Origin: a virus
DNA length: 64,000 nucleotides
Virus record (IMG/VR): IMGVR_UViG_3300022911_000003
Location: 1 to 64,000 of that record
Reading direction: 5' to 3' (one strand)
Positions 15,756-57,534 of the stretch are shown one piece after another. Within the stretch, counting starts at the first letter, position 1. Each line of letters starts with the position of its first letter. Under the pieces are notes generated by a model. That model worked only from the letters and a program-made list of their open reading frames with translations, did not search any database and had not been told where the DNA came from. A program made the position numbers and the translations under genes.

Positions 15756-16408
15756 CTCGCCCTCATGGCCTGAACCAAATACGGGTCAGTCTCGGCCTGA
15801 CCCAGATACCAGCGCACGTAATCGGCCGGCAGGTCTTTGATGGCCATGCCCTTGTGCTTGCCGAACTGCATCACGGTCGGGATGCGGGCTTCCTCGGACA
15901 TTTGGTATAGGTCGGCCATGTTGGCGGGATGCAGAACCTCGATCAGTTTTTGCAGCACGAACGCCGTCGCAAGGATGTCTGTCTCGACGCTGTGCGCACT
16001 GGCGAAGAATTCCTTGAACCGGGCCACGTCGAGGTAAGCGACCAACGCCATCAGTTTGTGGCTGTCGAGATCGGGCCATACCTTGCGGGCCAGACAGAGC
16101 GTGTCGATGCGCTTGCAGTCCGGCTTTCCGACAGCGGCCCAGTCAAAGTCCACATTCTGGCCAATCATGTATTCGTGGCCGAAACTGGACATAACGAACG
16201 GCTCCCGGTCCGCAACGTCCTGCTCGGTAATGCCATGAACCGACATGGCGCCGAATTCGATGGGCTTCGTGGGCTTGTAGCGCAATGACCACAGACCGCC
16301 GAATGACCATGCTTCGTCGAACATGACCAACATCTGGCCGTACTCGACGACGGATGGTTCGACAATACCCGTGGTCTCGGTGTCGATCAGGAGTGCTGTT
16401 TCGGTCAT
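15752..16408 (-). CDS. ExoX-like DEDDh 3'-5' exonuclease
   Basis: 218 residues. DTETTG with Asp9 and Glu11 is motif I of DEDD exonucleases, IGQNVDFDW is motif II, and HSVETD is the DEDDh motif III. The end (FGKHKGMAIKDLPADYVRWY) is a DUF3820-like module also found in ExoX-type nucleases. It probably trims single strands during recombination or repair. Sits between recT and the RecE-like gene, with 4-bp overlaps. Confidence 0.75.
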   Translation of the reverse strand: MTETALLIDTETTGIVEPSVVEYGQMLVMFDEAWSFGGLWSLRYKPTKPIEFGAMSVHGITEQDVADREPFVMSSFGHEYMIGQNVDFDWAAVGKPDCKRIDTLCLARKVWPDLDSHKLMALVAYLDVARFKEFFASAHSVETDILATAFVLQKLIEVLHPANMADLYQMSEEARIPTVMQFGKHKGMAIKDLPADYVRWYLGQAETDPYLVQAMRAR

Positions 16409-17766
16409 TGGTCATCCTTCACTTCAACAAAGAACGGGTCGCCGGGGAAGGCATTGGCCCACAACTCCGTGTCGCGAATCGCGGCGTAGAGTTCGTGATC
16501 CTGGTCGATGGCGATGGCGGCTTCCCACGGCCCGATCTTCTCGTCCCTGAGCCACGTCAGAAGCTGCACGATCTCGTCCCAAGATTTTGCCGCACGGGCA
16601 CGTTTGATGGCGTTGGCGATAAGTCCTGCGCTGGGGGCTTGAGTGCCTTCCTGCGAAGTTTGCGGCCCGTCGGCAGGCCCTTCCGGTTCGATAGCTGCTG
16701 CCCGATCCGCGTCAGAGATAGACTGGTCAGAAGGGGTGTCGAGCCGGGGCTCAATAGGGGTGCCGGTTGCAGCATTATTTTCCGGCTCAGATCGTTGCTC
16801 AGGCTTGGGTTCGACCCGGCCGGTCGGCGGCGGTGAAACAGGTTCTCGCCCAGCGGAATTCCCTTGTTGCTGCTCAGGTTCGCGGCGGCGGTGAGCGTCT
16901 TCCCGCCCGGCCTGTTCTTGGCTAGTACGGTTCGTTGGCGCCTCGGGAATATCGTCAGCCGGATTGTGTGTCAGGGCGACTGTGGTCACGACAGGAACGG
17001 CGGCCTGTACCTTCGTGAAATCGTAGAACGACTCCTCGTTAGCCACGACCGTTTTCAGTTCTTCGAACGGCAGCGTCTTGGACAGGGAGTGAATCGCGGT
17101 CTTGATCGACATTTCGTCTTCGTACTTCGACCAGACGTTGTCTGACTTCGACGCGGCCTTGGCCTTCGCGATCTTCTTCTTCGACAGGGCGCGCATGTGC
17201 TGCACGCCGTCCTTGGTTTCGACGATGCAGTATGACGCGATGATCTTCGGGTTGTCTTCGTTCCGAATTTCCAGAGATGGCTTGTGCTTGATCGAGGGCG
17301 CATCGCCGCCCGTGATGTCATAAAACTCCCCGTCGTAAATCACATCGGTGATGATGCGCTGGACCCGGCCGGTGCGGTACAGGATTTCGACGATGCCCTT
17401 GACCATGACCATGGCCTGGACTTTCTTGATCCACTGCTCCCGGCCGTTGGCGTCCTTGACCTTGGTGCTGTAGATCACCAGCGCGGCCTGCTTGCCATCG
17501 GGATTGACGCGGTACGTCGCCAACTGGACACATGCCTGAAACAGAGAGGTGCGATCCGCGTTGAGCAGTTCCGGGTCTTTCAGCAGGGCGTTCTTCACGA
17601 CGCTGACGAATCGCTTGGCGACATCCATGCCTTGAAGCAGGCCGGCGAGTTCACCCAACCTGTTGTCGAGTTGGCCGATGAACTGCGTCATGGCACCGTG
17701 CCTTGTTTCAGTCGGTGCCGCTGTGGCAGCCTGAGTCGCGACTTGGTTCTTGCCTGGTTCGGCCAT
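16405..17766 (-). CDS. recT: RecT-family single-strand annealing protein
   Basis: 453 residues, first gene of the leftward operon, with GGAG 9 bp before the ATG. Residues about 25-250 follow the RecT pattern (FVSVVKNALLKDPELLNAD, TYRVNPDGKQAALVIY, VKGIVEILYRTGRV, WSKYEDEMSIKTAIHSLSK). The family anneals complementary strands. The extra length is unusual: after about residue 265 there is a long Glu/Pro/Gln-rich linker, then a small C-terminal helical domain (WEAAIAIDQDHELYAAIRD) that might bind a partner. Confidence 0.8.
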   Translation of the reverse strand: MAEPGKNQVATQAATAAPTETRHGAMTQFIGQLDNRLGELAGLLQGMDVAKRFVSVVKNALLKDPELLNADRTSLFQACVQLATYRVNPDGKQAALVIYSTKVKDANGREQWIKKVQAMVMVKGIVEILYRTGRVQRIITDVIYDGEFYDITGGDAPSIKHKPSLEIRNEDNPKIIASYCIVETKDGVQHMRALSKKKIAKAKAASKSDNVWSKYEDEMSIKTAIHSLSKTLPFEELKTVVANEESFYDFTKVQAAVPVVTTVALTHNPADDIPEAPTNRTSQEQAGREDAHRRREPEQQQGNSAGREPVSPPPTGRVEPKPEQRSEPENNAATGTPIEPRLDTPSDQSISDADRAAAIEPEGPADGPQTSQEGTQAPSAGLIANAIKRARAAKSWDEIVQLLTWLRDEKIGPWEAAIAIDQDHELYAAIRDTELWANAFPGDPFFVEVKDDQ

Positions 17767-19684: not shown

Positions 19685-20908
19685 TTGACACATTCTGATT
19701 GCAGCCTCCACCTCGGAGACTGTCGTGAAGTCATGGCTGCGATGCCGGACAACTCTGTAGACTCGATCGTCTGTGATCCGCCGTATGAAATCGACTTCAT
19801 GGGCAAAGGTTGGGACAGGTCTGGCATAGCCTATGATCCTGTGGTCTGGCAGCAATGTCTCAGAGTTCTGAGGCCTGGTGGGCACATGGTCGCGGCGTCT
19901 CACGTCAAGACGTATCACCGCATGGCAATAGCGATCGAGGATTCCGGGTTTGAGATCCGCGACATGATACCTTGGATCTATTCCAGTGGTTTCCCGAAGA
20001 ACCATGACGCGGAGCGCGCCGTGGCTCAGAAGCAATGCGTGCTGCCCGGCCGGCACTTCTCACGCCAGGTTCCGGAAGGTGCAAAGTTCATGGAAGGCGA
20101 CCACATTTGCCACGAGACTGCGGACAGTCTCATATGGAAAGGCTTTGGCACAGCCCTGAAACCGGCCAACGAACCATTCTGTCTGGCCCGCAAGCCACTT
20201 GATGGCAGCGTGGCTGAGAACATCCTGAAATGGGGCGTTGGGGTGCTGAATATCGACGACTGCAGGGTTGGGGATGACGAGGCAGAGCGCGGACGCTGGC
20301 CGGCCAACATCATTACTGACGGTTCTGAACCGATCACTAGCCAGTTTCCAGAGGTCGCTGCGGGCGGGGGTTTGACTGGTAACGAGCCATCTCGTCCCAT
20401 GGGCGGCCATGTCTACGGTGACATGAATGGGCGGCACACGTGGCAGTCCTATGATGACTTCGGATCAGCGGCGCGGTTCTTCTACTGTGCCAAGTCATCT
20501 ACAGAGGATCGTGAACACGGCCTTGAAATGCTGGAACACCAGTTGCCGGCTGCTGCGCAGTTCAGGCCGAACCACTTGGAAAAGGCCAATGATGGCGAGG
20601 CGGGAAACCCATATGGACGGTACAGGAAGCGCAAAAATATCCATCCGACCGTCAAGCCAGTGGGCCTGATGCGATACCTGTGCCGGCTGATCACGCCACG
20701 AGGCGGAACGGTACTGGACCCTTTTATGGGATCTGGCAGCACGGGCAAGGCAGCGAGGCACGAGATCTTCAAATTCATCGGCATCGACATCACGCCTGAA
20801 TATTATGAAATCGCCACCAGACGCCTGAGTGCGGTCGTGGCTCAAATGGATCTATTCCGGCACGTCAAACCCCAAGCCCAGCAACCCAGCATGTTCGGTG
20901 ACGAATGA
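19685..20908 (+). CDS. DNA adenine/cytosine-N4 methyltransferase, beta class
   Basis: 407 residues from a TTG start with AAGGGGA 5 bp upstream. The catalytic DPPY is at residues 31-34 and the cofactor-binding DPFMGSGSTG is at 345-354, the motif order of beta-class N6A/N4C methyltransferases. The stretch between would recognise the target. No restriction enzyme is nearby, so it probably protects phage DNA. Overlaps the C5-methyltransferase gene by 4 bp. Confidence 0.8.
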   Translation: MTHSDCSLHLGDCREVMAAMPDNSVDSIVCDPPYEIDFMGKGWDRSGIAYDPVVWQQCLRVLRPGGHMVAASHVKTYHRMAIAIEDSGFEIRDMIPWIYSSGFPKNHDAERAVAQKQCVLPGRHFSRQVPEGAKFMEGDHICHETADSLIWKGFGTALKPANEPFCLARKPLDGSVAENILKWGVGVLNIDDCRVGDDEAERGRWPANIITDGSEPITSQFPEVAAGGGLTGNEPSRPMGGHVYGDMNGRHTWQSYDDFGSAARFFYCAKSSTEDREHGLEMLEHQLPAAAQFRPNHLEKANDGEAGNPYGRYRKRKNIHPTVKPVGLMRYLCRLITPRGGTVLDPFMGSGSTGKAARHEIFKFIGIDITPEYYEIATRRLSAVVAQMDLFRHVKPQAQQPSMFGDE

Positions 20909-22215
20909 GTGAGGCAGAAAATGACCTGGATCTATGTCCCATCAACCTCATCAGTCTGTGTACCGGAGGAGGCGGACTCGATCTCGGATTCGAGTTGGCG
21001 GTTCCAGGTGCTCGAAGCGTCGTGCTGGTCGAGAGGGAAACCTACGCGATCGCGCAACTGGTATCAGCTATGGAAGCGGGGCTTATGGCTCCAGCGCCTG
21101 TGTGGAGCGATGTGTTCACCTTCCGCGGCCGAGACTGGCGTGGCGCAGTGGACGGCGTCATTGGTGGAATCCCGTGCCAACCACACAGTCTCGCTGGCAA
21201 GCGACTCGGCGAAGAAGACGAACGCGATCTCTGGTCCGATGCAAGGCGAATCATCGTCCAGTCCGGGGCGTGGTTCTGCCTCATTGAAAACGTCCGCGGC
21301 ATGGTCTCATCGGGCGGACTCGAGCGAGTTTGGCGAGACCTTCGACGGCTTGGTTTCACGGTTGAGGTTGGACTGTTCACGGCGGAGGAAGTCGGCGCCA
21401 GTCACGAGCGGGAGCGAGTCTTCATCCTCGCAGTGGCGAACCCCGACCGACGACTCGAACCGCGGCGGAGCGCAGTCCGGCCTGAAGCGGCTTCAGGCCG
21501 GACATACAATGAACCTGCAAGATCAAGTGGTGGACTTTCGTGTGGAGTCGGCCAGGCCGACTCCAGCGACACGGGATTACAAGGGCGCGAACTCAGCGGA
21601 TCACTTGGAGAACGGCACGGGTCGGAAGCATCTGGATCAACTGCCAAACTTCGTCCAGCACATTTGGTCGACGCCCAGGGCGTCGGACGGGGAGAAGGGC
21701 AGTCCGAATCAGGATTTCGGAGCAGGCGGGACACCTTTGCCGGCGCAAGCAGTGCAATGGCAGACGCCGAAGGTGGCGCCGGGGGCCTATACGAGGGACC
21801 GCGGCCAGAAAGGTCAGGAACGCCTGTCCGTCGAGGGACAGGCGCGGAGCGAGACTTGGTCGACACCGTCGGTAGCGGACGTGATGGGGGGCAGGCTGTC
21901 TCGGGACCGAGACAGGTCGGACGAACTGTTGATGAACGGTCAGGCGGCTTCCCTATCTTCCCACCTGGACCAAATGACTTATCCGGTTGGCGGGATATCC
22001 TCGACCGAGCGCCGGAGTTTGAACCCAGTTTTCGTCGAGTATCTGATGGGTTGGCCTCTCGGATGGACATTGCTCGCGTGGACCGACTTAGGATGCTCGG
22101 CAACGGCGTTGTGCCACTTCAAGCAGCGTATGCGGTCAGAACTCTTGCGCATCGGCTTGCCGCCAGAGGCTCCGCTGGTGCAGCCAGACTTGTTCGGATG
22201 ATGGACCATGACTGA
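20905..22215 (+). CDS. DNA cytosine-5 methyltransferase
   Basis: 436 residues. Motif I is LCTGGGGLDLGFE (18-30), motif IV GGIPCQPHSLAGKR with catalytic Cys91, motif VI ENVRG (129-132), motif VIII RERVFILA (170-176), and motif X MLGNGVVPLQAAYAV near the end. The variable region (180-350) is Gly/Arg/Ser-rich with four repeats of the type VANP, LVDAQG, MADAEG and LVDTVG. These four spots read WRTP, WSTP, WQTP and WSTP in the +1 frame, which is open for the whole length of the gene. Confidence 0.8.
   Translation: MSEAENDLDLCPINLISLCTGGGGLDLGFELAVPGARSVVLVERETYAIAQLVSAMEAGLMAPAPVWSDVFTFRGRDWRGAVDGVIGGIPCQPHSLAGKRLGEEDERDLWSDARRIIVQSGAWFCLIENVRGMVSSGGLERVWRDLRRLGFTVEVGLFTAEEVGASHERERVFILAVANPDRRLEPRRSAVRPEAASGRTYNEPARSSGGLSCGVGQADSSDTGLQGRELSGSLGERHGSEASGSTAKLRPAHLVDAQGVGRGEGQSESGFRSRRDTFAGASSAMADAEGGAGGLYEGPRPERSGTPVRRGTGAERDLVDTVGSGRDGGQAVSGPRQVGRTVDERSGGFPIFPPGPNDLSGWRDILDRAPEFEPSFRRVSDGLASRMDIARVDRLRMLGNGVVPLQAAYAVRTLAHRLAARGSAGAARLVRMMDHD
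21431..22201 (+). CDS. Possible second protein in the +1 frame of the C5-methyltransferase gene
   Basis: The +1 frame (relative to the methyltransferase) is open from 20909 to 22201. From about 21431 it reads like a real protein: WRTPTDDSNRGGAQSG, WSTPRASDGEKGSPNQ, WQTPKVAPGAYTRDRG, WSTPSVADVMGG, and near the end LNPVFVEYLMGWPLGWTLL. I know WPTP repeats and an LNP..VE..MGWP.GWT end from phage methyltransferase-like proteins. Translation could use an internal ATG at 21509 or a +1 frameshift after methyltransferase motif VIII. The listed start is where similarity to the expected pattern begins, not a start codon. Confidence 0.4.
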   Translation, partial: QWRTPTDDSNRGGAQSGLKRLQAGHTMNLQDQVVDFRVESARPTPATRDYKGANSADHLENGTGRKHLDQLPNFVQHIWSTPRASDGEKGSPNQDFGAGGTPLPAQAVQWQTPKVAPGAYTRDRGQKGQERLSVEGQARSETWSTPSVADVMGGRLSRDRDRSDELLMNGQAASLSSHLDQMTYPVGGISSTERRSLNPVFVEYLMGWPLGWTLLAWTDLGCSATALCHFKQRMRSELLRIGLPPEAPLVQPDLFG

Positions 22216-24486: not shown

Positions 24487-24853
24487 GCGAAACCTGAGCG
24501 ACGTCGAAAATCGGGATGAGATTCGGCGCGAGGCCCGTCTTGTCCTGCTGGCCCAGACTCCAGGCACTAGGTCCGAGATCAAGGAGATCGTGTTTCGAAT
24601 CCTGAACCACTACGAAAGCTTTGATCGACGTTCGATCGAGTCCAAGGCGATGCTGGTCGACGACTGGCTCGAGTCGTTGGCGGAGTGGCCGGCCGACGTT
24701 CTGCGGGGCATGGCAAAGGCTTGGCGCGAGAATCCGAAGTCGGAATATTTTCCGACCGTGGGCAAGGTCATCGACGAAATCCCGGCGCAGTTCAAGGATC
24801 GCTACAAGGCGATGTATTCCGCGCAGCAGGTCGCTAAGCAGGAGTGGTTCTAA
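24368..24853 (+). CDS. Replication-region helical protein
   Basis: 161 residues, mainly helical. WPADVLRGMAKAWRENPKSE followed by FPTVGKVIDEI resembles phage proteins that accompany helicase loaders. It starts 119 bp inside the previous gene, a long overlap for this compact genome. The overlap covers the C-terminal tail of one protein and the N-terminal tail of the other, the parts most likely to be flexible. Confidence 0.6.
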   Translation: MNQASTSLTVRPPESEITKAQCELLTSPISFLNKGIDALERNLSDVENRDEIRREARLVLLAQTPGTRSEIKEIVFRILNHYESFDRRSIESKAMLVDDWLESLAEWPADVLRGMAKAWRENPKSEYFPTVGKVIDEIPAQFKDRYKAMYSAQQVAKQEWF

Positions 24854-25647
24854 TGGCTGAAACTACAGGAATTTCGTGGACTGATTCTACAATCAACTTC
24901 TGGATAGGGTGCACAAAAGTTGGACCTGGGTGTCAAAATTGCTACGCCGAGGCGATGAATCACAGGTTCGGCGGCGGCAACTGGGGTGCAGGAGCGCCGC
25001 GTAAGCGCACGGCTCAGGCCACGCGCAACAACCTGCTCAAGTGGCAGCGCGAGGCGGATAAGACCGGGGTCCGTCGAAAGGTGTTCATCAACTCCATGTC
25101 GGACTTCTGGGACAACGAAGTGCCGATAGAATGGCGCGAGGAAGACGCCGTGGTCATGGCGGCGTGCGACGGTCTGGATCTGCAACTCGTGACGAAGCGG
25201 ATTGGAAATGTGCCGAAACTCCTGCCAAGGGCGTGGTCGTCACATTGGCCAGCACATGTTTGGCAGATGATCACGGTCTGCAATCACGATGAATATTTGC
25301 GGGACACTCCCAAATTGGCACCCGTTATCGACATGGGCTGCAAAGTCACAGGCCTGTCTGCCGAGCCGCTTCTTGGTCCAATCAGGGTAGGCGCCTATGC
25401 GGATATGCTTAAATGGGTAATCGTCGGCGGTGAGTCTGGAAGCTTCGCGCGGCGCTACAATATCGAATGGGCCATGGATATCGCTGATAATTGCAGCCAA
25501 TATGGCATCGCATTTTTCCATAAGCAACTCGGCTCAAGACCTGTCGGCGTTGATGGCCGGCCGATCTACACCAAGGATAGGTCTGGAACGCATAGCGGTG
25601 ATTGGCCTAAGAATTTGTGCCGGCAAGAATTCCCGGTGGCCGCATGA
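24853..25647 (+). CDS. Phage Gp37/Gp68 (DUF5131) family protein
   Basis: 264 residues from an ATG overlapping the previous stop (TAATG). The N-terminal GISWTDSTINFW and CTKVGPGCQNCYAEAM are signatures of this family; the cysteines resemble a radical-SAM cluster but with wider spacing. LSAEPLLGPI and VIVGGESG follow. The family is widespread in phages and prophages; its reaction is not established as far as I know. Confidence 0.75.
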   Translation: MAETTGISWTDSTINFWIGCTKVGPGCQNCYAEAMNHRFGGGNWGAGAPRKRTAQATRNNLLKWQREADKTGVRRKVFINSMSDFWDNEVPIEWREEDAVVMAACDGLDLQLVTKRIGNVPKLLPRAWSSHWPAHVWQMITVCNHDEYLRDTPKLAPVIDMGCKVTGLSAEPLLGPIRVGAYADMLKWVIVGGESGSFARRYNIEWAMDIADNCSQYGIAFFHKQLGSRPVGVDGRPIYTKDRSGTHSGDWPKNLCRQEFPVAA

Positions 25648-48691: not shown

Positions 48692-48949
48692 ATGTCCGAT
48701 AAGCAGAAAAAATTTGTGAGGTGCGTCGATGTGCTGGACCGCAACCAGTACTACGACCAATGCACCAAGGAACCGACGGGACTGATTCATGACCCCGTTG
48801 TTCCGGGCCTGACGTTGGGCCGTATCTATCTCGTGACGAGCGAGGCGCCTGACTATTTCCGAATCACCAATGACCTTGGCGAGAAGGACTCGGGCTATTT
48901 CAAGCACCGCTTCGAGGTCATGCGGGTCAATCCAGAGGTCGTGTCGTGA
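48692..48949 (+). CDS. Small protein before terL
   Basis: 85 residues from the Met of MSDKQKKFVRCVDVL. Strand-rich (YLVTSEAPDYFRITNDLGEK) with an SH3-like feel. Overlaps the terL start by 4 bp (GTGA). It sits where a small terminase subunit would normally be, but lacks a helix-turn-helix. Confidence 0.6.
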   Translation: MSDKQKKFVRCVDVLDRNQYYDQCTKEPTGLIHDPVVPGLTLGRIYLVTSEAPDYFRITNDLGEKDSGYFKHRFEVMRVNPEVVS

Positions 48950-50550
48950 GAACTGATCCGCGCCAGGGCAAGACCCAAGAAGAGGCGATGCTCGAATCGC
49001 TTCTCGCATGGGAGCAAAACCGCGCCCAAGAGAAGATGCTCATTGAGGCACAGCGCGAGGGGGAGCGAATCAGGGAAGAGTGCCACCGTTTGATCGGCTT
49101 CATCGGCCACGCTTGGAGAATACTTGAGCCAGTAGCTGAGTTGAAAATAGGGTGGGCCATTGATGCGATGGCTGAGCACCTGGAGGCTATCCACTATCGC
49201 TACATCAAAAACCTCCTGACCAACGTTCCACCCGGGATGCTTAAGTCATTGATGACAAACGTGTTTTTTCCAGCTTGGGAATGGGGTCCAAAGGATAGGT
49301 CAGATATGCGTTATGTCTGCACCAGTTACGGCCTGGACCTTACGAACCGTGATGGAGAGAAGTTTCTCAGACTGATCACGTCGGAATGGTATCAGACGCT
49401 TTGGACCCCGGTTAACGTAACAAAATTTGCGGTCGATAATATTGGGAACTCAAACACTGGCGTCAGAATCGGGGTTCCGTGGTCAAAGAGTATGGGGCGC
49501 CGGGGCGGCAGGTTTATGTTCGATGACCCGCATGACCTGCTTAATGCCGAAGCCGATGACCAGCGCGCCACGACAGTTCGTCTGTTCAAGGAAGGCGCAT
49601 CGTCCCGACTGAATGACCCTGAGACCGATTCGATGATCGGAATCATGCAGCGCCTAAATCAGGGTGACATCTCGGGTTACATTCTGGAAAACGACCCGAG
49701 TTACACCCACCTCATGTTGCCGCAGGAGTTCGAGCCGGAGCGGAAGTGCATCACGTATCGCAAGGACGGCACCAAACTGTTCGAGGACCCGAGAACAAAG
49801 GAAGGTGAGCTCGTCTTCCCCGAACGTTTCAACAGGGCCTATGTCGATTTCCGGAAGAGCGCCAAAGGTATTGGTGCCTACGCCTACGCCGCTCAAGATC
49901 AACAGCGCCCCACACCTCGCGGCGGCGGCTTGTTCCAGAAGACATGGTTCGATAAGAGGACGGTTCAGCGCGTCACTGACCTGCCGGCCAAGATCGTTCG
50001 CACGGTCCGGGCATGGGACTTGGCCGCGACCGACCTGAAAGCGCTGCAAACCACAGGCGCCAGATCGGCCGGGGTCAAGATGGCGAAACTGGCCAATGAC
50101 GAATACGCCATCCTGGGATGCGTGGCTCGGGGGTACGGCCCGGCCAAGGTCAAGGCCCTGATGAAGACCACAGCCAAGGCCGACGGCAAGGGTGTGGAAA
50201 TTTCTGCGCCGCAAGATCCGGCTCAGGCTGGCAAGGTGCAGCGTGCCGACATCATCAAGTCGCTGGCCGGCTTCACCGTCAGCGTCACGACAGAATCGGG
50301 TGACAAGGCTGCGCGTTTCACGCCATTTTCGGTCCAGTGCGAAGAAGGAAATGTCTGGATCGTCGACGGGCCTTGGGTTCAGGAATTCTTCGAAGAACTT
50401 GAGCCGTTTCCAAATGGGAAGCGCAAGGACATCGGCGATGCCTGCTCCCGCGCCTTCGGTCACCTGACCACGAAGCGCCAGCGCAGACCTGTCTCAACAG
50501 CAGGCACGGTGGCGATTCTGCTCCAAGCCGAGGCCGACGCGGAAGCCTGA
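48946..50550 (+). CDS. terL: Terminase large subunit
   Basis: 534 residues from a GTG start. NLLTNVPPGMLKSL near 90-102 is a TerL-type Walker A variant, FMFDDPHDLL contains the Walker B acidic pair, and RTVRAWDLAATD opens the RNase H-like nuclease domain that continues to EGNVWIVDG and KDIGDACSRAF. It cuts concatemers and pumps DNA into the prohead. The first 50 residues form an unusually long, charged helical extension. Confidence 0.9.
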   Translation: MRTDPRQGKTQEEAMLESLLAWEQNRAQEKMLIEAQREGERIREECHRLIGFIGHAWRILEPVAELKIGWAIDAMAEHLEAIHYRYIKNLLTNVPPGMLKSLMTNVFFPAWEWGPKDRSDMRYVCTSYGLDLTNRDGEKFLRLITSEWYQTLWTPVNVTKFAVDNIGNSNTGVRIGVPWSKSMGRRGGRFMFDDPHDLLNAEADDQRATTVRLFKEGASSRLNDPETDSMIGIMQRLNQGDISGYILENDPSYTHLMLPQEFEPERKCITYRKDGTKLFEDPRTKEGELVFPERFNRAYVDFRKSAKGIGAYAYAAQDQQRPTPRGGGLFQKTWFDKRTVQRVTDLPAKIVRTVRAWDLAATDLKALQTTGARSAGVKMAKLANDEYAILGCVARGYGPAKVKALMKTTAKADGKGVEISAPQDPAQAGKVQRADIIKSLAGFTVSVTTESGDKAARFTPFSVQCEEGNVWIVDGPWVQEFFEELEPFPNGKRKDIGDACSRAFGHLTTKRQRRPVSTAGTVAILLQAEADAEA

Positions 50551-50614: not shown

Positions 50615-51994
50615 ATGGCGAAATTCGACATTTGGAACGGCGGCCTGATCGATCAGCGCCCCAACCGCGTCTCGCCTTTTGAGGAAGCGGGACGTTCCGG
50701 AACGGCAATTTACAACGGATACGTCTATAGCGGCGAACGAAACGCCAAGGTCCAGGGCAGGACGAGGTACGAAACGGCTCAAGACGTTCTGGTCAACTCC
50801 GCCGTGGTCGGCGCCGGGATGAGGTTTTTCCTGGATCTGGTGTCATACCCGAAATGGAGCACGGTTGCGGCCGGCGCCGAGAAGGACGGAAAAGCTTCGG
50901 ATGAAGCGAAGCGCGTTGCGGACTTTGTCACGGAGCAGCGCGAAAGCCTTACCGATTCCTGGGCCAGATGCGTGCGCCGCATGGCAGCGTCTCGGTTCTA
51001 CGGCTTTGGCATCCACGAATGGACCGCAGTAAAAATACAGGAAGGGCAATGGTCCGGCTCGATCGGCATGGAAAGCCTCGAGTCCCGGCCTTGGCAAACC
51101 ATAGAGCAATGGGACACGAACCTCCAAGGCACGGTCTATGGCGTGGTGCAGCGGGTCCTAAATTCTGCCGAGTCGGACTGTTACATCCCTCGTGGAAAGT
51201 TTGTTTACCTCGTCGACGATGCTTTCAGCGACAGCCCGGAAGGCATCGGACTTTGGCGCCACCTGGTCGAGCCATATGAGCGGTTCAAGGCGTACTGCAA
51301 GATCGAATCCATGGGCTTTGAGCGCGACCTGCGCGGAATTCCGGTCGGCTATGCCCCGTTGGGCGACTACGAACTGGACGGCCTGACGGCGGAGCAGATC
51401 GCGGCCAAGATCAAGCCTCTGACCGATTTCGTTTCGCTGCAGGCCAAGAAGTCCGATACCGCCATTGTGCTCGACTCGTCGACCTATGTCAGCCAGGGCG
51501 AGACACAGGACTCGGTCAGTCCGGTCAAGAAATACGGCATCGAACTCATGACGGCCTCGGGCAACGGTTTTGCCGACATCGGGAATGCCATTGACCGGGC
51601 TCAGTACCAGATGGCCCTGCTGTGCGGAACCGAAACCATGCTGACCGGCGCGGGCCGCGAGGGGAGCCGAGCCCTGAGCGATTCGCAGGCCAAGGCCCTT
51701 TCCATGCGGGTCGATAGTTGTGCCGGCGACATTGTGGCAGCGACGAACCGGGACTTCATCGCGCCCCTGATGCGCCTCAACAACATCCCCCGTGAACTGT
51801 GGCCCAAGGCCAAGATCGAGTCGTCGCAATACACCGACGTCCTGACCAAGTCGCAGTTGCTGGTCAATCTGGCGAACGCCGGGGCTGTGTTGTCACCAGA
51901 AGACCCGGCCGTGAATGAACTCAGGCTGGAGGCCGGACTGCTTGCCGCTGCGGGAGACATCATGTCGCTCGATGCCATGAATACGGGGAAATAG
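50615..51994 (+). CDS. Portal protein
   Basis: 459 residues, next to terL. GIGLWRHLVEPYERFKAYCK, then FERDLRGIPVGYAPLGDYEL and IDRAQYQMALLCGTETML fit the DUF935/Mu-like portal family. It forms the ring through which DNA enters and leaves and to which the tail is joined. Size fits the family. Ends with a helical acidic tail. Confidence 0.8.
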   Translation: MAKFDIWNGGLIDQRPNRVSPFEEAGRSGTAIYNGYVYSGERNAKVQGRTRYETAQDVLVNSAVVGAGMRFFLDLVSYPKWSTVAAGAEKDGKASDEAKRVADFVTEQRESLTDSWARCVRRMAASRFYGFGIHEWTAVKIQEGQWSGSIGMESLESRPWQTIEQWDTNLQGTVYGVVQRVLNSAESDCYIPRGKFVYLVDDAFSDSPEGIGLWRHLVEPYERFKAYCKIESMGFERDLRGIPVGYAPLGDYELDGLTAEQIAAKIKPLTDFVSLQAKKSDTAIVLDSSTYVSQGETQDSVSPVKKYGIELMTASGNGFADIGNAIDRAQYQMALLCGTETMLTGAGREGSRALSDSQAKALSMRVDSCAGDIVAATNRDFIAPLMRLNNIPRELWPKAKIESSQYTDVLTKSQLLVNLANAGAVLSPEDPAVNELRLEAGLLAAAGDIMSLDAMNTGK

Positions 51995-51995
51995 G

Positions 51996-52499
51996 ATGAC
52001 CTTCGTCACCATTACCGGATCTGAAACCCAGTACCCGACCTATGCCGACATCGGCATGGCCAATGACTACATGCTTGCAGTCTTCGGGCCGCTGGGCACG
52101 GCATGGCGTGCCACGGATTACGACACATTGTCGCGCGCCCTTGCAACGGGGTACAGGCAACTGAACCTTCTGTCATGGACCACGGGTTATGCCGAAGACC
52201 CTGACTGGCAACTCGCCATCGTCTCAGCCAATATCGAATACGCCGCGGCCCTGGTCGAGGGCAGTTTCACGGATCAGCAGACCCAGTTGGCCAGCGGCAC
52301 CAAGCGCCTCAAAGCCGACACGGCGGAGATCGAGTATTTCAAGGTCTTCACCCGAGCAGGCCCGGCCCTGAATTTGCCAAGAACGGTCTATGACTTGATC
52401 AAGCCATGGTTGGCAGCGACGTCCGGCGCCGCACCGGGCTACTCATCCGGAACCGATGGATGCAGCGCTTTCAAATACGACTACCGCCAGTACTTTTAG
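51996..52499 (+). CDS. Head completion/connector protein
   Basis: 167 residues. YPTYADIGMANDYMLAVFG, ALATGYRQLNLLSW and NLPRTVYDLIKPWL follow the small helical adaptor fold of connector proteins annotated as DnaT-like in phages. Position after the portal supports it. Confidence 0.6.
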   Translation: MTFVTITGSETQYPTYADIGMANDYMLAVFGPLGTAWRATDYDTLSRALATGYRQLNLLSWTTGYAEDPDWQLAIVSANIEYAAALVEGSFTDQQTQLASGTKRLKADTAEIEYFKVFTRAGPALNLPRTVYDLIKPWLAATSGAAPGYSSGTDGCSAFKYDYRQYF

Positions 52500-52508
52500 G
52501 AGCCTGTC

Positions 52509-53072
52509 ATGACCTCTGCCCTCGTTATCGGTTGCGCCTCGTGCGTCTGGGAAGACGCTGAAAAGGCCATGAAGCTGTTCAAGCCTGACATGATCGTCGC
52601 AGTGAACCATATCGGCATCGACTGGCCCGACCGCGTCGACCACTGGGCAACGTGCCACGTCGATCTTTTTCCGGCATGGATGGAACAGCGCGCCGCCAAG
52701 GGCTACGAGCCTGCCGGCCAACTCTGGACCAACAATACCAAGATCGGCCAGTTGCCTCCAGAATTGAAGGGACTCGGCATCAAGGGCGTGGAGTACTGGG
52801 ACGGATCAAGCGGGGCGCTCGGGGCGCTTGCCGCGATCGAGGCCGGAGCGGATCGAGTCGTTCTGGCCGGCGTCCCACTGACCAATGGGCCGCATTACTA
52901 CGAGGGCGACCACTTTACCTGGGACGCGACGTATCAGCGGATGTGGAACTATAATTACCTGAAGTTCGACGACAAGGTCCGCAGTGTTTCTGGTTGGACC
53001 CGTGAACTTCTGGGCCAACCGATCAAGTCATGGTTCAAAAATGCCGTTCGACCAGATCCAGAAGAAGTCTGA
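52509..53072 (+). CDS. Conserved protein in the head cluster
   Basis: 187 residues with AGGAG upstream. ALVIGCASCVWEDAEKAMKL, VAVNHIGIDWPDRVDHWATC and GSSGALGALAAIEAGADRVV suggest a nucleotide-sugar-like or deoxyribosyl-type Rossmann fold seen as an uncharacterised protein in several phage head clusters. Not an obvious structural protein. Overlaps the next gene by 32 bp. Confidence 0.5.
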   Translation: MTSALVIGCASCVWEDAEKAMKLFKPDMIVAVNHIGIDWPDRVDHWATCHVDLFPAWMEQRAAKGYEPAGQLWTNNTKIGQLPPELKGLGIKGVEYWDGSSGALGALAAIEAGADRVVLAGVPLTNGPHYYEGDHFTWDATYQRMWNYNYLKFDDKVRSVSGWTRELLGQPIKSWFKNAVRPDPEEV

Positions 53073-54024
53073 GGCGTTAAAGCTTCTCGAAACACTGCTC
53101 GACCGTCAGGAAGCGAAGGTCCGGGCCGCGTTCATGGACTTCGTGCGCCGGGTTTCGTCCGATGAAGTGATTCGCGCCATTGCCGATCTGGTCCAGCGTG
53201 GCCAGGTGACTGAGGCTCTGGCTATCATCGGGTATGAAGGTGCCAGTCTCGGCACCGCAGCCAATGCCGTTTTTCTCGGTTCGGCCCAGACCGAGGCTGA
53301 GGCGCTGGTCGACCAGTTGCGCCGCTTGGCTCCTCGTGCCGGATTGGCCTTCAATCCCTTCGACAGCACCTTGGCAGCCATTGCACGTCAGACGGGCCTC
53401 CGGTTTGTTCAGGAAACGACCCAGTCGCAGCAAAACACGATACTGGATGCCCTGAGCCGAAACATAGGCGGCGATGTGCGGCAGACCGCCCGCGCGATCC
53501 GCAGCGCCATCGGCCTGACCACGGCACAACAGGACTCGGTCAGGCGGTACAGAAACCTGCTCGAAACCGGGTCGCGCCGAGCCGTTGAGGTTGCGTTGCG
53601 GGACAAGCGTTTCGACTCCAGCGCCAGTCGTGCCGCAGAGGGTTTGGCCCTTGATCCGGCCAAGATTGACCGCATGGTCGAGCGCTACAGGCAGAACTTC
53701 GTTGCGTATCGCGCCACCGTCATTGCCAGGACCGAAGGCGGGCACCTGTTCGGCGTGGCACGAGAGGCCGGGTTCCGGCAGATGCTGCAGCAGGCCGGGA
53801 TTGCAGAGTCACGCGGCGAAAAGGGATGGCGCACCCGGCGCGATGCCTTGGTGCGAGACCTGCATGAGCCTATGGACGGTGTCTGGGTCGGACTGAACCA
53901 GGTCTTCACCATGCCGAACGGTGAGGTTTGCTACAGGCCCAAGGACCCATCACTGAGCGCCAAGAACAGGTGTTCGTGCCGCTGCCTTCACCAGTTCAGC
54001 ATCAGGTCGGATTCGGGCATGTAG
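53041..54024 (+). CDS. Minor head protein, MuF/SPP1 gp7-like
   Basis: 327 residues from ATG 53041. The helical N-terminus is followed by VIARTEGGHLFGVAREAGFR, WRTRRDALVRDLHEPMDGVW and a Cys-rich end with CSCRCLHQF, the classic C-terminal pattern of the Mu gpF / SPP1 gp7 family. These proteins help head assembly and may enter the host with DNA. Confidence 0.75.
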   Translation: MPFDQIQKKSEALKLLETLLDRQEAKVRAAFMDFVRRVSSDEVIRAIADLVQRGQVTEALAIIGYEGASLGTAANAVFLGSAQTEAEALVDQLRRLAPRAGLAFNPFDSTLAAIARQTGLRFVQETTQSQQNTILDALSRNIGGDVRQTARAIRSAIGLTTAQQDSVRRYRNLLETGSRRAVEVALRDKRFDSSASRAAEGLALDPAKIDRMVERYRQNFVAYRATVIARTEGGHLFGVAREAGFRQMLQQAGIAESRGEKGWRTRRDALVRDLHEPMDGVWVGLNQVFTMPNGEVCYRPKDPSLSAKNRCSCRCLHQFSIRSDSGM

Positions 54025-54089
54025 GGTGCCTTCAGACCCGATTTACGGGCATTTTAACGACCCCCTTGCAAAACAAAAAAATACTGTCA

Positions 54090-54118
54090 CCCTGAATGCA
54101 AGTTCTCAGGGCCTTTTC
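54090..54118 (+). terminator. Weak terminator before the head maturation genes
   Basis: CCCTGA (54090-54095) pairs with TCAGGG (54106-54111), followed by CCTTTTCCC. A second small hairpin CCCG-ATTTA-CGGG with a following ATTTT lies at 54037-54049. These may adjust the ratio between minor head and later capsid genes. The 99-bp gap also has an A-rich run. Confidence 0.4.
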
Positions 54119-54123
54119 CCGGC

Positions 54124-55110
54124 ATGTCCAAACCCTTCACCTCGCTCGATTATTCGCCGAGTTTCACGGCCGAGGGTGACATGCGCCTGCTCGCGAAGGG
54201 CAAGACATCCCCGCTTTACGTTTTCCGCAGCGTGGTCAACACCGCTGATATCGTGTCGTGGGCCAAGGCTCAGGGTTTCGCATCCGTGGTCGATCCGGCC
54301 GAGTTGCACGTGACAGTCATCTACTCCAAGTCCCCGGTCGACTGGTTCAAGTTCGGTGAGAATTGGAGCGGCGACGAAAAGGGCCAACTGACGATCAATG
54401 CCGGGGGGCCGCGCGCCGTCGAAAAACTCGGTGACAAGGGCGCAGTCGTCCTGATGTTCGCCTCGTCGCAGTTGTCGTGGCGCAATCGCTCGGCTGTAGA
54501 AGACCTTGGTGCGTCGTGGGACTATCCAGAGTATCAGCCTCATATCACGATCACCTATGCCGCGGGCGGCCTGGACCTGACTGAGGTAGAGCCCTACACC
54601 GGCAAGATAGTCCTCGGCCCTGAGATGTTCGAGGACATCGACGACAACTGGTCCGACACCGTTGTTGAAGTCAGCGATGTGCACGAGGTTTCCAAGATCC
54701 AGTGCCGCATCGCCAAGGTCGACGACTCGCTCGGCATCGTGTTCGGTTGGGCCATTGTGTCCAGCGTCGACGGCGAGCCGTACTATGACCTGAACATCGA
54801 CAAGTCCGGTGAGCGCGTCCCGGAGCACATTCCGGAGCAGGCCATGCTCAAGGCCGCCGTTCCGTTCGCCGAGGGTGAGCGACCGGCCAACGACATGCAC
54901 GACGGCCCTGATGTCGGCACCTATCCATTCATCATGCCCCTGACTGACGACATCGCCAAGGCATTCGGTATTGAGTGCGACAAGCGCGGCCTGATGATCG
55001 GGTTCAAGCCCACCGATAAGGCGCTGCTGAAGCAATTTGCCGATGGCACCAGGACTGGCTTTTCGATCGAAGGTCACCGCGTCAAAGTTACGGAGCACGC
55101 CAGTGCCTAA
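54124..55110 (+). CDS. Acb1-like (anti-CBASS) domain fused to XkdF-like head domain
   Basis: 328 residues. The first ~175 look like a 2H phosphoesterase of the Acb1 family: LYVFRSVVNTADIVSWAKAQ, LHVTVIYSKSPVDWF with His62/Thr64, and YQPHITITY with His140/Thr142. Acb1 of T4 degrades the cyclic nucleotides made by CBASS immunity. Residues about 190-325 (FGWAIVSSVDGEPYYDLNID, HIPEQAMLKAAVPF, MPLTDDIAKAFGIECDKRGL) resemble XkdF-type prohead proteins. Being built as a head-gene fusion, the enzyme might be packaged in virions; that is inference. Confidence 0.65.
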   Translation: MSKPFTSLDYSPSFTAEGDMRLLAKGKTSPLYVFRSVVNTADIVSWAKAQGFASVVDPAELHVTVIYSKSPVDWFKFGENWSGDEKGQLTINAGGPRAVEKLGDKGAVVLMFASSQLSWRNRSAVEDLGASWDYPEYQPHITITYAAGGLDLTEVEPYTGKIVLGPEMFEDIDDNWSDTVVEVSDVHEVSKIQCRIAKVDDSLGIVFGWAIVSSVDGEPYYDLNIDKSGERVPEHIPEQAMLKAAVPFAEGERPANDMHDGPDVGTYPFIMPLTDDIAKAFGIECDKRGLMIGFKPTDKALLKQFADGTRTGFSIEGHRVKVTEHASA

Positions 55111-56026
55111 GCCCAGCAAGACTCGCGTGCTTCACGAACTGAGCCTGACCAAGATCGCCGCCGTGGACCTGCCGTGCCAGGAACACGCCCAGGTCACGAT
55201 CATCAAGAATTCCGACTCCAAGTCGGCAAAGCCCGGTCAGTCCGGCGAAACAGACGAAGGAAACCATATGTCTGTCATTACGAAAATGCTGGGTCTGAAG
55301 GACGATGCCAGCGCGGCCGAAATTGATACGGCCTTTACCAAGTACGCCGAGGACAACAAGACCTCCGTTGACCGTCTCTCCCAGGTCGAAAAGGCTCTGG
55401 CGGAACAGTCCCTGCTCGCCGGCATGTCCGACGAGTCACGCGTTCATTACAACGACCTGGCCAAGTCGGCGCCGGCCGATGCCGAAGCTTTTGGCAAGAT
55501 GACCGAGGCCGAACGCAAGGCCAAACTCGACGCCGCGAAGGCCGGTGATGAGGTCTGCAAAATGGCCGACGGCACCGAAATCTCCAAGCGCGCTGTCGGC
55601 GATGCCAGTTTCGCGATATTCAAGAAGATGGCGGAAGAAATCAAGGCCGGTGCCGAGGAACGCGCTGAACTGGCCAAGGCCGCCGCTGATGCCGACATCG
55701 AAAAGCGCATCAAGGTCGACTTCGCCAATATTCCGGGCGACGGCAGCGATCTCGCCAAGGTTCTGCGTCTCGCAAAGGCCGCTCCGGATGCCACCAAGAC
55801 GGCCTTCGAAAATATCCTGAAGGCGTACAACACGCTGCTGGGCCAAGCCATGGTTCGCAAGGGCCACAGCGATCCGAAGGTTGATCCGGAAGATCCGGAA
55901 TCACAACTGGACGTCATGGCAAAGGCGTGCGCCAAGGCTGAAAAGATCACCGAAGACGAAGCTTTCGCCAAGGTGCTCCAAACCCCCGAGGGTCGCGAGC
56001 TCTACGCTCGTATGGACACTCAGTAA
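55103..56026 (+). CDS. Head scaffold-like protein with possible internal start
   Basis: 307 residues from GTG 55103 (GGAG 7 bp upstream), overlapping the previous gene by 8 bp. TRVLHELSLTKIAAVDLPCQ resembles the end of prohead protease/XkdF proteins. From about residue 55 the chain is Ala/Lys/Glu-rich and helical, as in scaffolds. ATG 55268 (MSVITKMLGLKDDA) has AAGGA 6 bp upstream and could yield a shorter scaffold of 252 residues, as in lambda C/Nu3. Confidence 0.6.
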   Translation: MPKPSKTRVLHELSLTKIAAVDLPCQEHAQVTIIKNSDSKSAKPGQSGETDEGNHMSVITKMLGLKDDASAAEIDTAFTKYAEDNKTSVDRLSQVEKALAEQSLLAGMSDESRVHYNDLAKSAPADAEAFGKMTEAERKAKLDAAKAGDEVCKMADGTEISKRAVGDASFAIFKKMAEEIKAGAEERAELAKAAADADIEKRIKVDFANIPGDGSDLAKVLRLAKAAPDATKTAFENILKAYNTLLGQAMVRKGHSDPKVDPEDPESQLDVMAKACAKAEKITEDEAFAKVLQTPEGRELYARMDTQ

Positions 56027-56511: not shown

Positions 56512-57534
56512 ATGCCTATCATCCAACCCGGCCGTGCAGACGTTCACGTCAATCGTCCGCTAACCTCGATCAGCATCGCCTACATGCTGAATACCGACGA
56601 CTTTGTTGCCGGCAAGACCTTCCCGGTCGTGCCGGTCGATAAGCAGTCCGACCTGTATTATGTCGTCGATGCTGAGCGTGAAATGCTGCGCGACATTATG
56701 CAAGAGCGTGCTCCTGCGACCGAGTCCGACGGCATGACGTTCAAGTTGTCGACCAACCCGTACTTCGCCCGGAAATACTCGCTGCACCACGACATCCCGG
56801 ATGAAGTTCGTGACAATGCCGATGATCCGCTTGATATGGACCAGATGACGACTCAGGCCCTGACCCAGTCAGCCCTGATCCGTCGCGAAGTCCTGTTCAA
56901 CACGTCGTTCTTCACCGCAGGCAATCCGGGCGATACCTGGACCTTCGACGTCGACGGCGTTTCGTCGGGCGCCTCGACTGCGGCTGCATTCGATCCGACT
57001 GACAATGCGAACAACCAGAAACTTCAGTGGAACGATGCGGCCTCGACGCCGATCGAGGACATTCGTCAGGGCAAGCGCTACGTCAAGGCCCGTACCGGCC
57101 TGCGCCCCAACGTCCTGACGCTTCAGGAAACGGTCTATGACACGCTGCTGGATCACCCCGACATCGTGGGTCGCATAGACCGCGGTCAGACCAGCGGTGC
57201 CGCAATGGCAAACCGTGTGACCCTGGCCCAACTGTTCGAGGTCGACGAAGTCCTCGTCATGGGCGGCGTCAAGAACTCGGCTCAGAAGGGCGCCACTGCC
57301 TCGATCGGTTTCATCGGCGGCAAGAACGCCTTGCTGTCGTACCGCCCCCCGGCACCTGGACGCATGGTCGCTTCGGCGGGGTACTGGTTCGACTGGAAGA
57401 ACGGTCGCGCGCGTGGCATCCGCAAGTTCCGCATGGAACTGAAGGATGCAGATCGTCTGGAATATACCGATTACATGGCCCCGACGAAAATCGGCGCCGA
57501 CCTCGGTTATTTCTTTGGCGCGATTGTGGCCTAA
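56512..57534 (+). CDS. Major capsid protein
   Basis: 340 residues from ATG 56512 (GAAAGGAAA upstream). DDFVAGKTFPVVPVDKQSDL, RKYSLHHDIPDEVRDNADDP, RTGLRPNVLTLQETVYDTLL and GGKNALLSYRPPAPGRMVAS match a phage major-capsid family of the HK97 fold. Gene order (scaffold, decoration, capsid) supports it. Confidence 0.8.
   Translation: MPIIQPGRADVHVNRPLTSISIAYMLNTDDFVAGKTFPVVPVDKQSDLYYVVDAEREMLRDIMQERAPATESDGMTFKLSTNPYFARKYSLHHDIPDEVRDNADDPLDMDQMTTQALTQSALIRREVLFNTSFFTAGNPGDTWTFDVDGVSSGASTAAAFDPTDNANNQKLQWNDAASTPIEDIRQGKRYVKARTGLRPNVLTLQETVYDTLLDHPDIVGRIDRGQTSGAAMANRVTLAQLFEVDEVLVMGGVKNSAQKGATASIGFIGGKNALLSYRPPAPGRMVASAGYWFDWKNGRARGIRKFRMELKDADRLEYTDYMAPTKIGADLGYFFGAIVA

Follow-up and report, generated by a model that had tools for sequence, protein, structure and literature searches.

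An Acb1-type phosphodiesterase domain fused to an XkdF-like prohead protease domain in the head gene cluster of an uncultured virus

The DNA analysed here (the window) comprises 64,000 nucleotides of a 70,956-base IMG/VR record of an uncultured virus and contains a cluster of head genes. All features of this cluster listed below lie on the plus strand. The cluster begins with the terminase large subunit (48946–50550; Pfam, PHROG), followed by a Mu-type portal protein that lacks an Acb1 domain (50615–51994; Pfam, PHROG), an Ad1-like head-tail adaptor (51996–52499; PHROG), a small open reading frame (ORF), and a MuF-like head morphogenesis protein (52984–54024; Pfam, PHROG). The 328-amino acid ORF that is the subject of this report (54124–55110; ORF list, Pfam, PHROG) comes next and precedes a putative scaffold (55103–56026), a small ORF resembling head genes, and the major head protein (56512–57534; phrog_1005), which bears the N-terminal arm QPGRADVHVNRPL. 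The role of the putative scaffold is assigned from its position; its PHROG match is to a family of unknown function. The 328-amino acid ORF is thus flanked by portal and head morphogenesis genes on one side and by scaffold and major head protein genes on the other, as expected for a protease of the XkdF type. Elsewhere in the window are two consecutive DNA methylase genes, a DUF5131 protein, and a RecT-like protein (19685–22215, 24844–25647, and 16405–17766).

A single uninterrupted frame, open from position 54058, runs across two domains, an N-terminal Acb1 domain and a C-terminal XkdF-like domain. The ATG at 54124, from which residues are numbered throughout, has no Shine-Dalgarno match; the in-frame ATG at 54181 (residue 20) is preceded by GAGG at a spacing of 5. 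Because residues 1–17 also have pLDDT values below 50 in the AlphaFold model, translation probably starts at 54181, which yields a protein of 309 amino acids (54181–55110). The two domains are separated by a flexible linker (residues 186–193; 54679–54702; pLDDT below 50). At the other end of the gene, the likely GTG start codon of the putative scaffold at 55103 lies within the fusion gene, which suggests that the two genes are translationally coupled. A CCCTGA/TCAGGG hairpin near 54091–54111, upstream of the fusion gene, was considered as a terminator and rejected; it folds no better than shuffled sequences (z 0.21) and was not found by a terminator scan.

The Acb1 domain, a 2H phosphodiesterase, spans residues 30–178 (54211–54657) and matches Pfam PF23474 with 139.4 bits (cut-off 27; E 9e-41); it is the only Acb1 copy in the 70,956-base record. 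Alignment with T4 Acb1 places H44, T46, H113, and T115 of the T4 enzyme on H62, T64, H140, and T142, completing the HxT/HxT tetrad in the motifs LHVTVIY (HxT at 54307–54315) and PHITITY (HxT at 54541–54549). The roles of the T4 residues and of the Acb1 lid are taken from excerpts of Hobbs et al. 2022 (PMC9117128). Base-stacking and lid positions Y12, F107, E141, and W147 of T4 Acb1 correspond to Y32, Y134, E170, and W176, with the last two falling in a predicted lid segment (54631–54651). W74, a base-stacking residue in both T4 and FBB1 Acb1, falls on E100, in a region that is hard to align. With the same reservation about alignment, tryptophan occupies this position in 3 of 5 free Acb1 domains, in 0 of 26 portal-fused domains, and in 0 of 25 domains fused to XkdF. 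The position of T4 E141 is a glutamate in only 9 of 25 fusions. Since the catalytic and lid residues match those of T4 Acb1, the chemistry of this domain should be that of Acb1. The substrate pocket departs from it at one stacking residue, a difference shared by every portal-type member examined. The substrate may differ because W74 is not conserved.

The predicted structure agrees with this assignment. The AlphaFold model of the fusion (pLDDT 84.9; alignment of 55 sequences) superimposes on Acb1 bound to cGAMP (7t27) with a Z score of 16.8 and a root-mean-square deviation (rmsd) of 1.9 over 135 residues, compared with Z scores of 14.0 for a phosphodiesterase from a Burkholderia phage and about 10.8 for E. 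coli LigT. The best solved relatives by sequence (phmmer) are the C-terminus of the Pam3 portal (E 2.6e-32) and FBB1 Acb1 (7t26; E 1.1e-12). In the BFVD collection of structures, the best match is a 1134-amino acid protein of an uncultured phage named "Anti-CBASS protein Acb1"; a 396-amino acid protein from Caulobacter phage Sansa aligns over many columns with high rmsd.

The XkdF-like domain occupies residues 188–324 (54685–55095), approximate boundaries supported by both a match to PHROG 1530 (E 3.4e-17) and the model. The Pfam XkdF model (PF14550) found no match to the window's own domain at E≤1. That domain is about 40–60% identical to relatives that do match PF14550; six related loci (L020, L119, L129, L087, L074, and L025) score over the Pfam cut-off and two (L031 and L024) under it. 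Modeled alone, the domain reached a pLDDT of 83.0, and its best structural match was the T4 gp21 capsid assembly protease (Z 8.5; 110 residues; rmsd 2.8), followed by herpesvirus proteases (Z 5.3). The predicted catalytic residues H259 (54898–54900) and S314 (55063–55065; motif GFSIEG) are each invariant in 25 of 25 fusions. This half is likely a working prohead protease. These results confirm what a preliminary description of the locus had observed and support its interpretation in part. That description had placed two HxT motifs in an Acb1-like context and an XkdF-like head maturation domain together in one frame among head genes. The motifs align with the T4 tetrad; the open frame carries both the Pfam Acb1 and the PHROG 1530 matches; PHROG 1530, the gp21 match, and the invariant His and Ser favor the head maturation domain; and terminase, Mu-type portal, Ad1, and MuF-like genes upstream and the major head protein downstream place the gene as proposed. 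The 2H fold, on which that description had staked its reading, is predicted with high confidence and lies closer to Acb1 than to LigT.

The pairing is not confined to the window. We searched IMG/VR with the protein of the window, with its XkdF domain, and with two profiles, one of XkdF and one of the fusion; contigs retrieved by more than one scan were merged (90% identity) before clusters were counted. At least 39 ORFs from IMG/VR loci contain both Acb1 and XkdF domains and, beyond the window, fall into at least 24 clusters when grouped at 90% identity. These counts are lower bounds, since two scans kept 80 of 271 and 80 of 486 relatives. Among the 25 fusion clusters, the HxT/HxT tetrad is complete in 23, both of its histidines are present in 24, and the protease His/Ser dyad is present in all 25. 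Residue by residue, H62 and T64 are retained in 25/25, H140 in 24/25 (tyrosine in L153), and T142 in 24/25 (serine in L087). In all 24 further loci, the scaffold profile matches a downstream ORF of the same strand, although this profile may be loose toward low-complexity proteins. At least one of terminase, portal, head morphogenesis, and major head protein genes was found in 23 of the 24; the major head protein was present in 17 and head morphogenesis in 16, and L040 showed the scaffold match only. Recurrence of the pairing in many other environmental phages suggests a link between counter-defence and head assembly. The fused Acb1 domain is under purifying selection, with dN/dS values of 0.10 (L087/L088) and 0.20 (L132/L143) in the two unsaturated pairs; the other listed pairs were saturated.

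Among 50,697 records searched for isolated phages with the fusion, tblastn (E 1e-5) found none in which one place covered 80% of the query, a requirement that divergent or long-linker fusions could escape. With the proteins of the window, L087, L048, and L150 as queries, such coverage was reached in 0/276, 0/278, 0/1462, and 0/307 matching records. A prophage scan of genome contigs returned 6 loci that matched the XkdF half only; its search patterns lay in that half, so the result says little about Acb1.

Several related proteins contain additional domains. One 843-amino acid protein (L020:2620–5148) combines a Mu-type portal, Acb1, and XkdF, each scoring over its Pfam cut-off. The near-identical L019 (1234–3375), in which the sequence changes beyond residue about 690 and XkdF is thereby lost, was left out of the fusion count. 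ChaB (PF06150) precedes Acb1-XkdF in L087, L074, L129, and other fusions, creating three-domain proteins of the head cluster. A 798-amino acid protein in L145 (1830–4223) joins a DUF1073-type portal, Acb1, and a PBECR3 nuclease domain.

We took a census of N-terminal partners in a scan with the XkdF domain alone, which covered 80 loci in 62 clusters. No partner was present in 27 clusters; the others carried a ParB-like domain (11), an unrecognised N-terminal part (9), Acb1 (7, of which 2 also had ChaB), ChaB (5), or a further unnamed domain (3). By this comparison of sequences, the XkdF N-terminus acts like a slot that different domains can fill interchangeably. The unnamed domain (KSFKPPKGVQSNAKRGLEMRERYGRGG...) lies ahead of XkdF in L091, L085, and L102, and that of L091 has no Pfam match. 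An element resembling KIGARHSKSDxxxIQxxHDxAVxLGA recurs in XkdF linkers or N-terminal parts of L031, L040, L055, L129, L132, and L135. We also built trees of both domains. For the Acb1 tree, we thinned the portal sequences at 85% similarity, which left 56 rows in all; the window sits in a starred set of 29 rows, comprising 25 portal-fused and 4 XkdF-fused domains (99/92); the XkdF label requires 7 changes on this tree, at least 4 of which are forced by starred branches. On the XkdF tree (86 rows, thinned at 88%), which rests on few columns, the Acb1 label requires 14 changes, of which no fewer than 4 are forced. Because both trees need multiple label changes, Acb1 has been gained by, or lost from, the protease several times.

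N-terminally extended XkdF proteins often contain a peptide that resembles the N-terminal arm of the major head protein (consensus QPTPGDVHVNAPL; window arm, 56512–56580). Examples are found in L119 (814–1944), L067 (2641–3375), L048 (2182–3156), L039, L077, L130, and others. At a score of at least 12, the peptide is present in 15 of 91 distinct XkdF ORFs and in 1 of 9011 other ORFs; at a score of at least 8, it appears in 19 of 67 XkdF N-terminal parts, compared with a mean of 0.48 in shuffles. The 15 pairs of arm and peptide from the same locus are more alike than in any of 10,000 permutations, a result confounded by phage relatedness. The peptide might mark a cleavage site common to both proteins, or it might serve for docking. 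The window's fusion lacks it (score -5.3), so the peptide provides no evidence about the window.

Comparison with known systems separates what is new from what is not. The fusion shares with Acb1 (T4 gp57B, FBB1; PF23474) the 2H fold, the HxT/HxT tetrad, the lid Glu and Trp, and the aromatic positions Y12/F107. It differs from the T4 enzyme, which is a free protein, in being joined to a head protease and in carrying E100 at the position of W74. In a T4 clone (L205), acb1 (57B) adjoins a gene annotated as internal head protein. The preliminary description had stated that known Acb1 enzymes are free early proteins; this does not hold, since portal-Acb1 proteins are common and include the solved Pam3 portal, and excerpts of Iyer et al. 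2017 (PMC5512222) describe 2H domains fused to portal and MuF head proteins and suggest that they degrade nucleotide signals. Of the first 20 loci in one scan, 16 encode proteins of about 615–702 amino acids with a C-terminal Acb1; the portal part was checked with Pfam in L002 and, from another scan, in L145. Portals of the DUF1073 type (Pam3, phiPSA1, RHEph04; PF06381 + PF23474), like the fusion, place Acb1 on a head protein, with up to 57% identity in isolates, but there the carrier is the portal and Acb1 is C-terminal, whereas the window's own portal is Mu-type and bare. The fusion likewise resembles the polyvalent proteins of Iyer et al. 2017 (PMC5512222) in combining a head protein and a 2H enzyme, disparate domains in one polypeptide. 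In the accessible text of that paper, "xkdf" occurs 0 times and "prohead" once, and an XkdF or prohead protease carrier was not found there; the text of Hobbs et al. 2022 (PMC9117128) contains no words beginning with "portal" or "fused". Searches of open-licence PMC papers turned up none that recognisably describes Acb1 joined to a prohead protease or XkdF. By these searches, Acb1 on a prohead protease appears to be new, whereas 2H/Acb1 domains on portal and MuF proteins were already known.

The closest counterparts of the protease half are stand-alone XkdF-like proteins of Erythrobacter phage R6L and Roseobacter phages RDJL1 and RDJL6, which are 47–51% identical and lie between a head morphogenesis and a scaffold-like gene; they differ from the fusion in having no N-terminal domain, and some are annotated "DNA methyltransferase". 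The same name is attached to XkdF-like proteins in L023, L025, and their relatives, probably through PHROG 1530. In Rhizobium phage RHph_TM3_3_9 and Vibrio phage 382E49-1, the carrier and its place are as in the fusion, but a ParB-like domain replaces Acb1. Roseobacter phage DSS3P8 gp129 (L026:2992–3444), annotated "prohead protease, HK97 family" and rejected as a fusion, is a free Acb1-like protein of 150 amino acids; annotation alone had suggested vB_RpoS-V10, like DSS3P8, as a prohead protease fusion.

How might such a protein act? We judge it somewhat better than an even chance that the fusion is a late head protein with two enzymes, an Acb1-type enzyme that degrades CBASS signals in the producing cell and an XkdF-type protease. 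The C-terminal half would serve as a prohead protease with a fold like those of T4 gp21 and the herpesvirus proteases, while the N-terminal half would act as a 2H phosphodiesterase that cuts the cyclic oligonucleotide alarm molecules of CBASS. The enzyme would be present during head assembly in an amount tied to that of the protease, because translation within the head operon would make its timing and amount follow heads and protease; gene order is what points to late expression. CBASS signal would then be removed in the producing cell until lysis. CBASS is activated in late infection, and its cyclase is regulated by phage-protein binding or proteolysis, according to excerpts of a study (PMC13424991) that cites Richmond-Buccola et al. 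Of the two routes offered by the preliminary description, acting late inside the cell that produces the phage would fit the evidence better than delivery on entry into the next host.

Delivery on entry deserves consideration nonetheless. Prohead proteases work inside the prohead, and the protease half could bring Acb1 into that compartment and cleave itself, leaving Acb1 to be ejected with the DNA and to act at once in the next cell. Acb1 also occurs on portals, which stay in the virion; the protease N-terminus accepts other cargo-like domains (ParB-like, ChaB); and many N-extended XkdF proteins contain the arm-like peptide. Prohead proteases usually destroy themselves and leave, however, a portal-fused Acb1 presumably could not be ejected whole, and the window's fusion is among those that lack the peptide. 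Iyer et al. (PMC5512222, excerpts) did predict injection of head-fused domains, and a fusion delivered in this way would be a polyvalent protein as they use the term. On balance, we regard carriage in the virion as possible but unlikely.

The target of the 2H domain could instead be RNA, in which case the domain would act on RNA ends in late infection, either as an RNase or as a 2',3'-cyclic-phosphate enzyme. Members of the 2H superfamily act on RNA ends (PMC5512222, excerpts), PHROG and older annotations name relatives "RNA ligase", and the loss of the W74 stacking residue together with weak conservation of E141 is compatible with another substrate. Nevertheless, the closest solved structures are by a clear margin Acb1 enzymes and a phage phosphodiesterase rather than LigT; the enzymes encoded by 9 further acb1 genes each cleaved 3'3'-cGAMP and cAAA (Hobbs et al., PMC9117128, excerpts); and these versions of 2H are not associated with RNA ligases (Iyer et al., PMC5512222, excerpts). 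An RNA substrate therefore seems improbable to us. We give still less credence, and very little in absolute terms, to the domain being a head appendage for binding or assembly, with enzyme activity secondary. The position of all 24 further fusions among head genes and the tyrosine that replaces the second catalytic histidine in 1 of 25 would suit an appendage, but the almost complete retention of the tetrad and its histidines would not, and 27 of 62 clusters of related XkdF proteins have no N-terminal domain at all. A chance motif or assembly artefact, conceivable for a contig from an uncultured virus, is ruled out by recurrence in 24 further clusters on other contigs, and the Pfam Acb1 match (E 9e-41) speaks against it too; we assign it next to no weight.

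It is tempting to speculate further that the protease itself matters to CBASS. Phage prohead proteases have reportedly been identified as CBASS triggers by Richmond-Buccola and colleagues in 2024, and a prohead protease central to CBASS recognition would resemble our fusion in this respect. The phage Bas13, which we take to belong to the T1 family, is the case in point. In excerpts of another report (PMC12409349), the prohead protease of Bas13 is described as interacting with a CBASS sensor and as causing growth arrest. Acb1 would then be an antidote welded to the protease that triggers CBASS, destroying the product where it is made, and the XkdF N-terminus would be a counter-defence slot (Acb1, ParB-like, ChaB, others), tied in some cases to the head by a copy of the arm. 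We consider this extension doubtful. The T1 protease belongs to DUF2213, and comparison with XkdF revealed no similarity between the two, which weakens the idea. The triggering protease may thus be of another family, and portals, which are not proteases, often carry Acb1. More simply, any head protein made late and in abundance may be a suitable carrier for Acb1.

The fusion described here shows how annotations such as "RNA ligase", "DNA methyltransferase", and "prohead protease" can mislead. It also shows that Acb1-type domains have been wired into head proteins repeatedly, through two carriers, the portal and the prohead protease. These fusions provide concrete proteins with which to ask whether phages couple a CBASS trigger to its antidote and whether virions deliver enzymes that destroy the signal.
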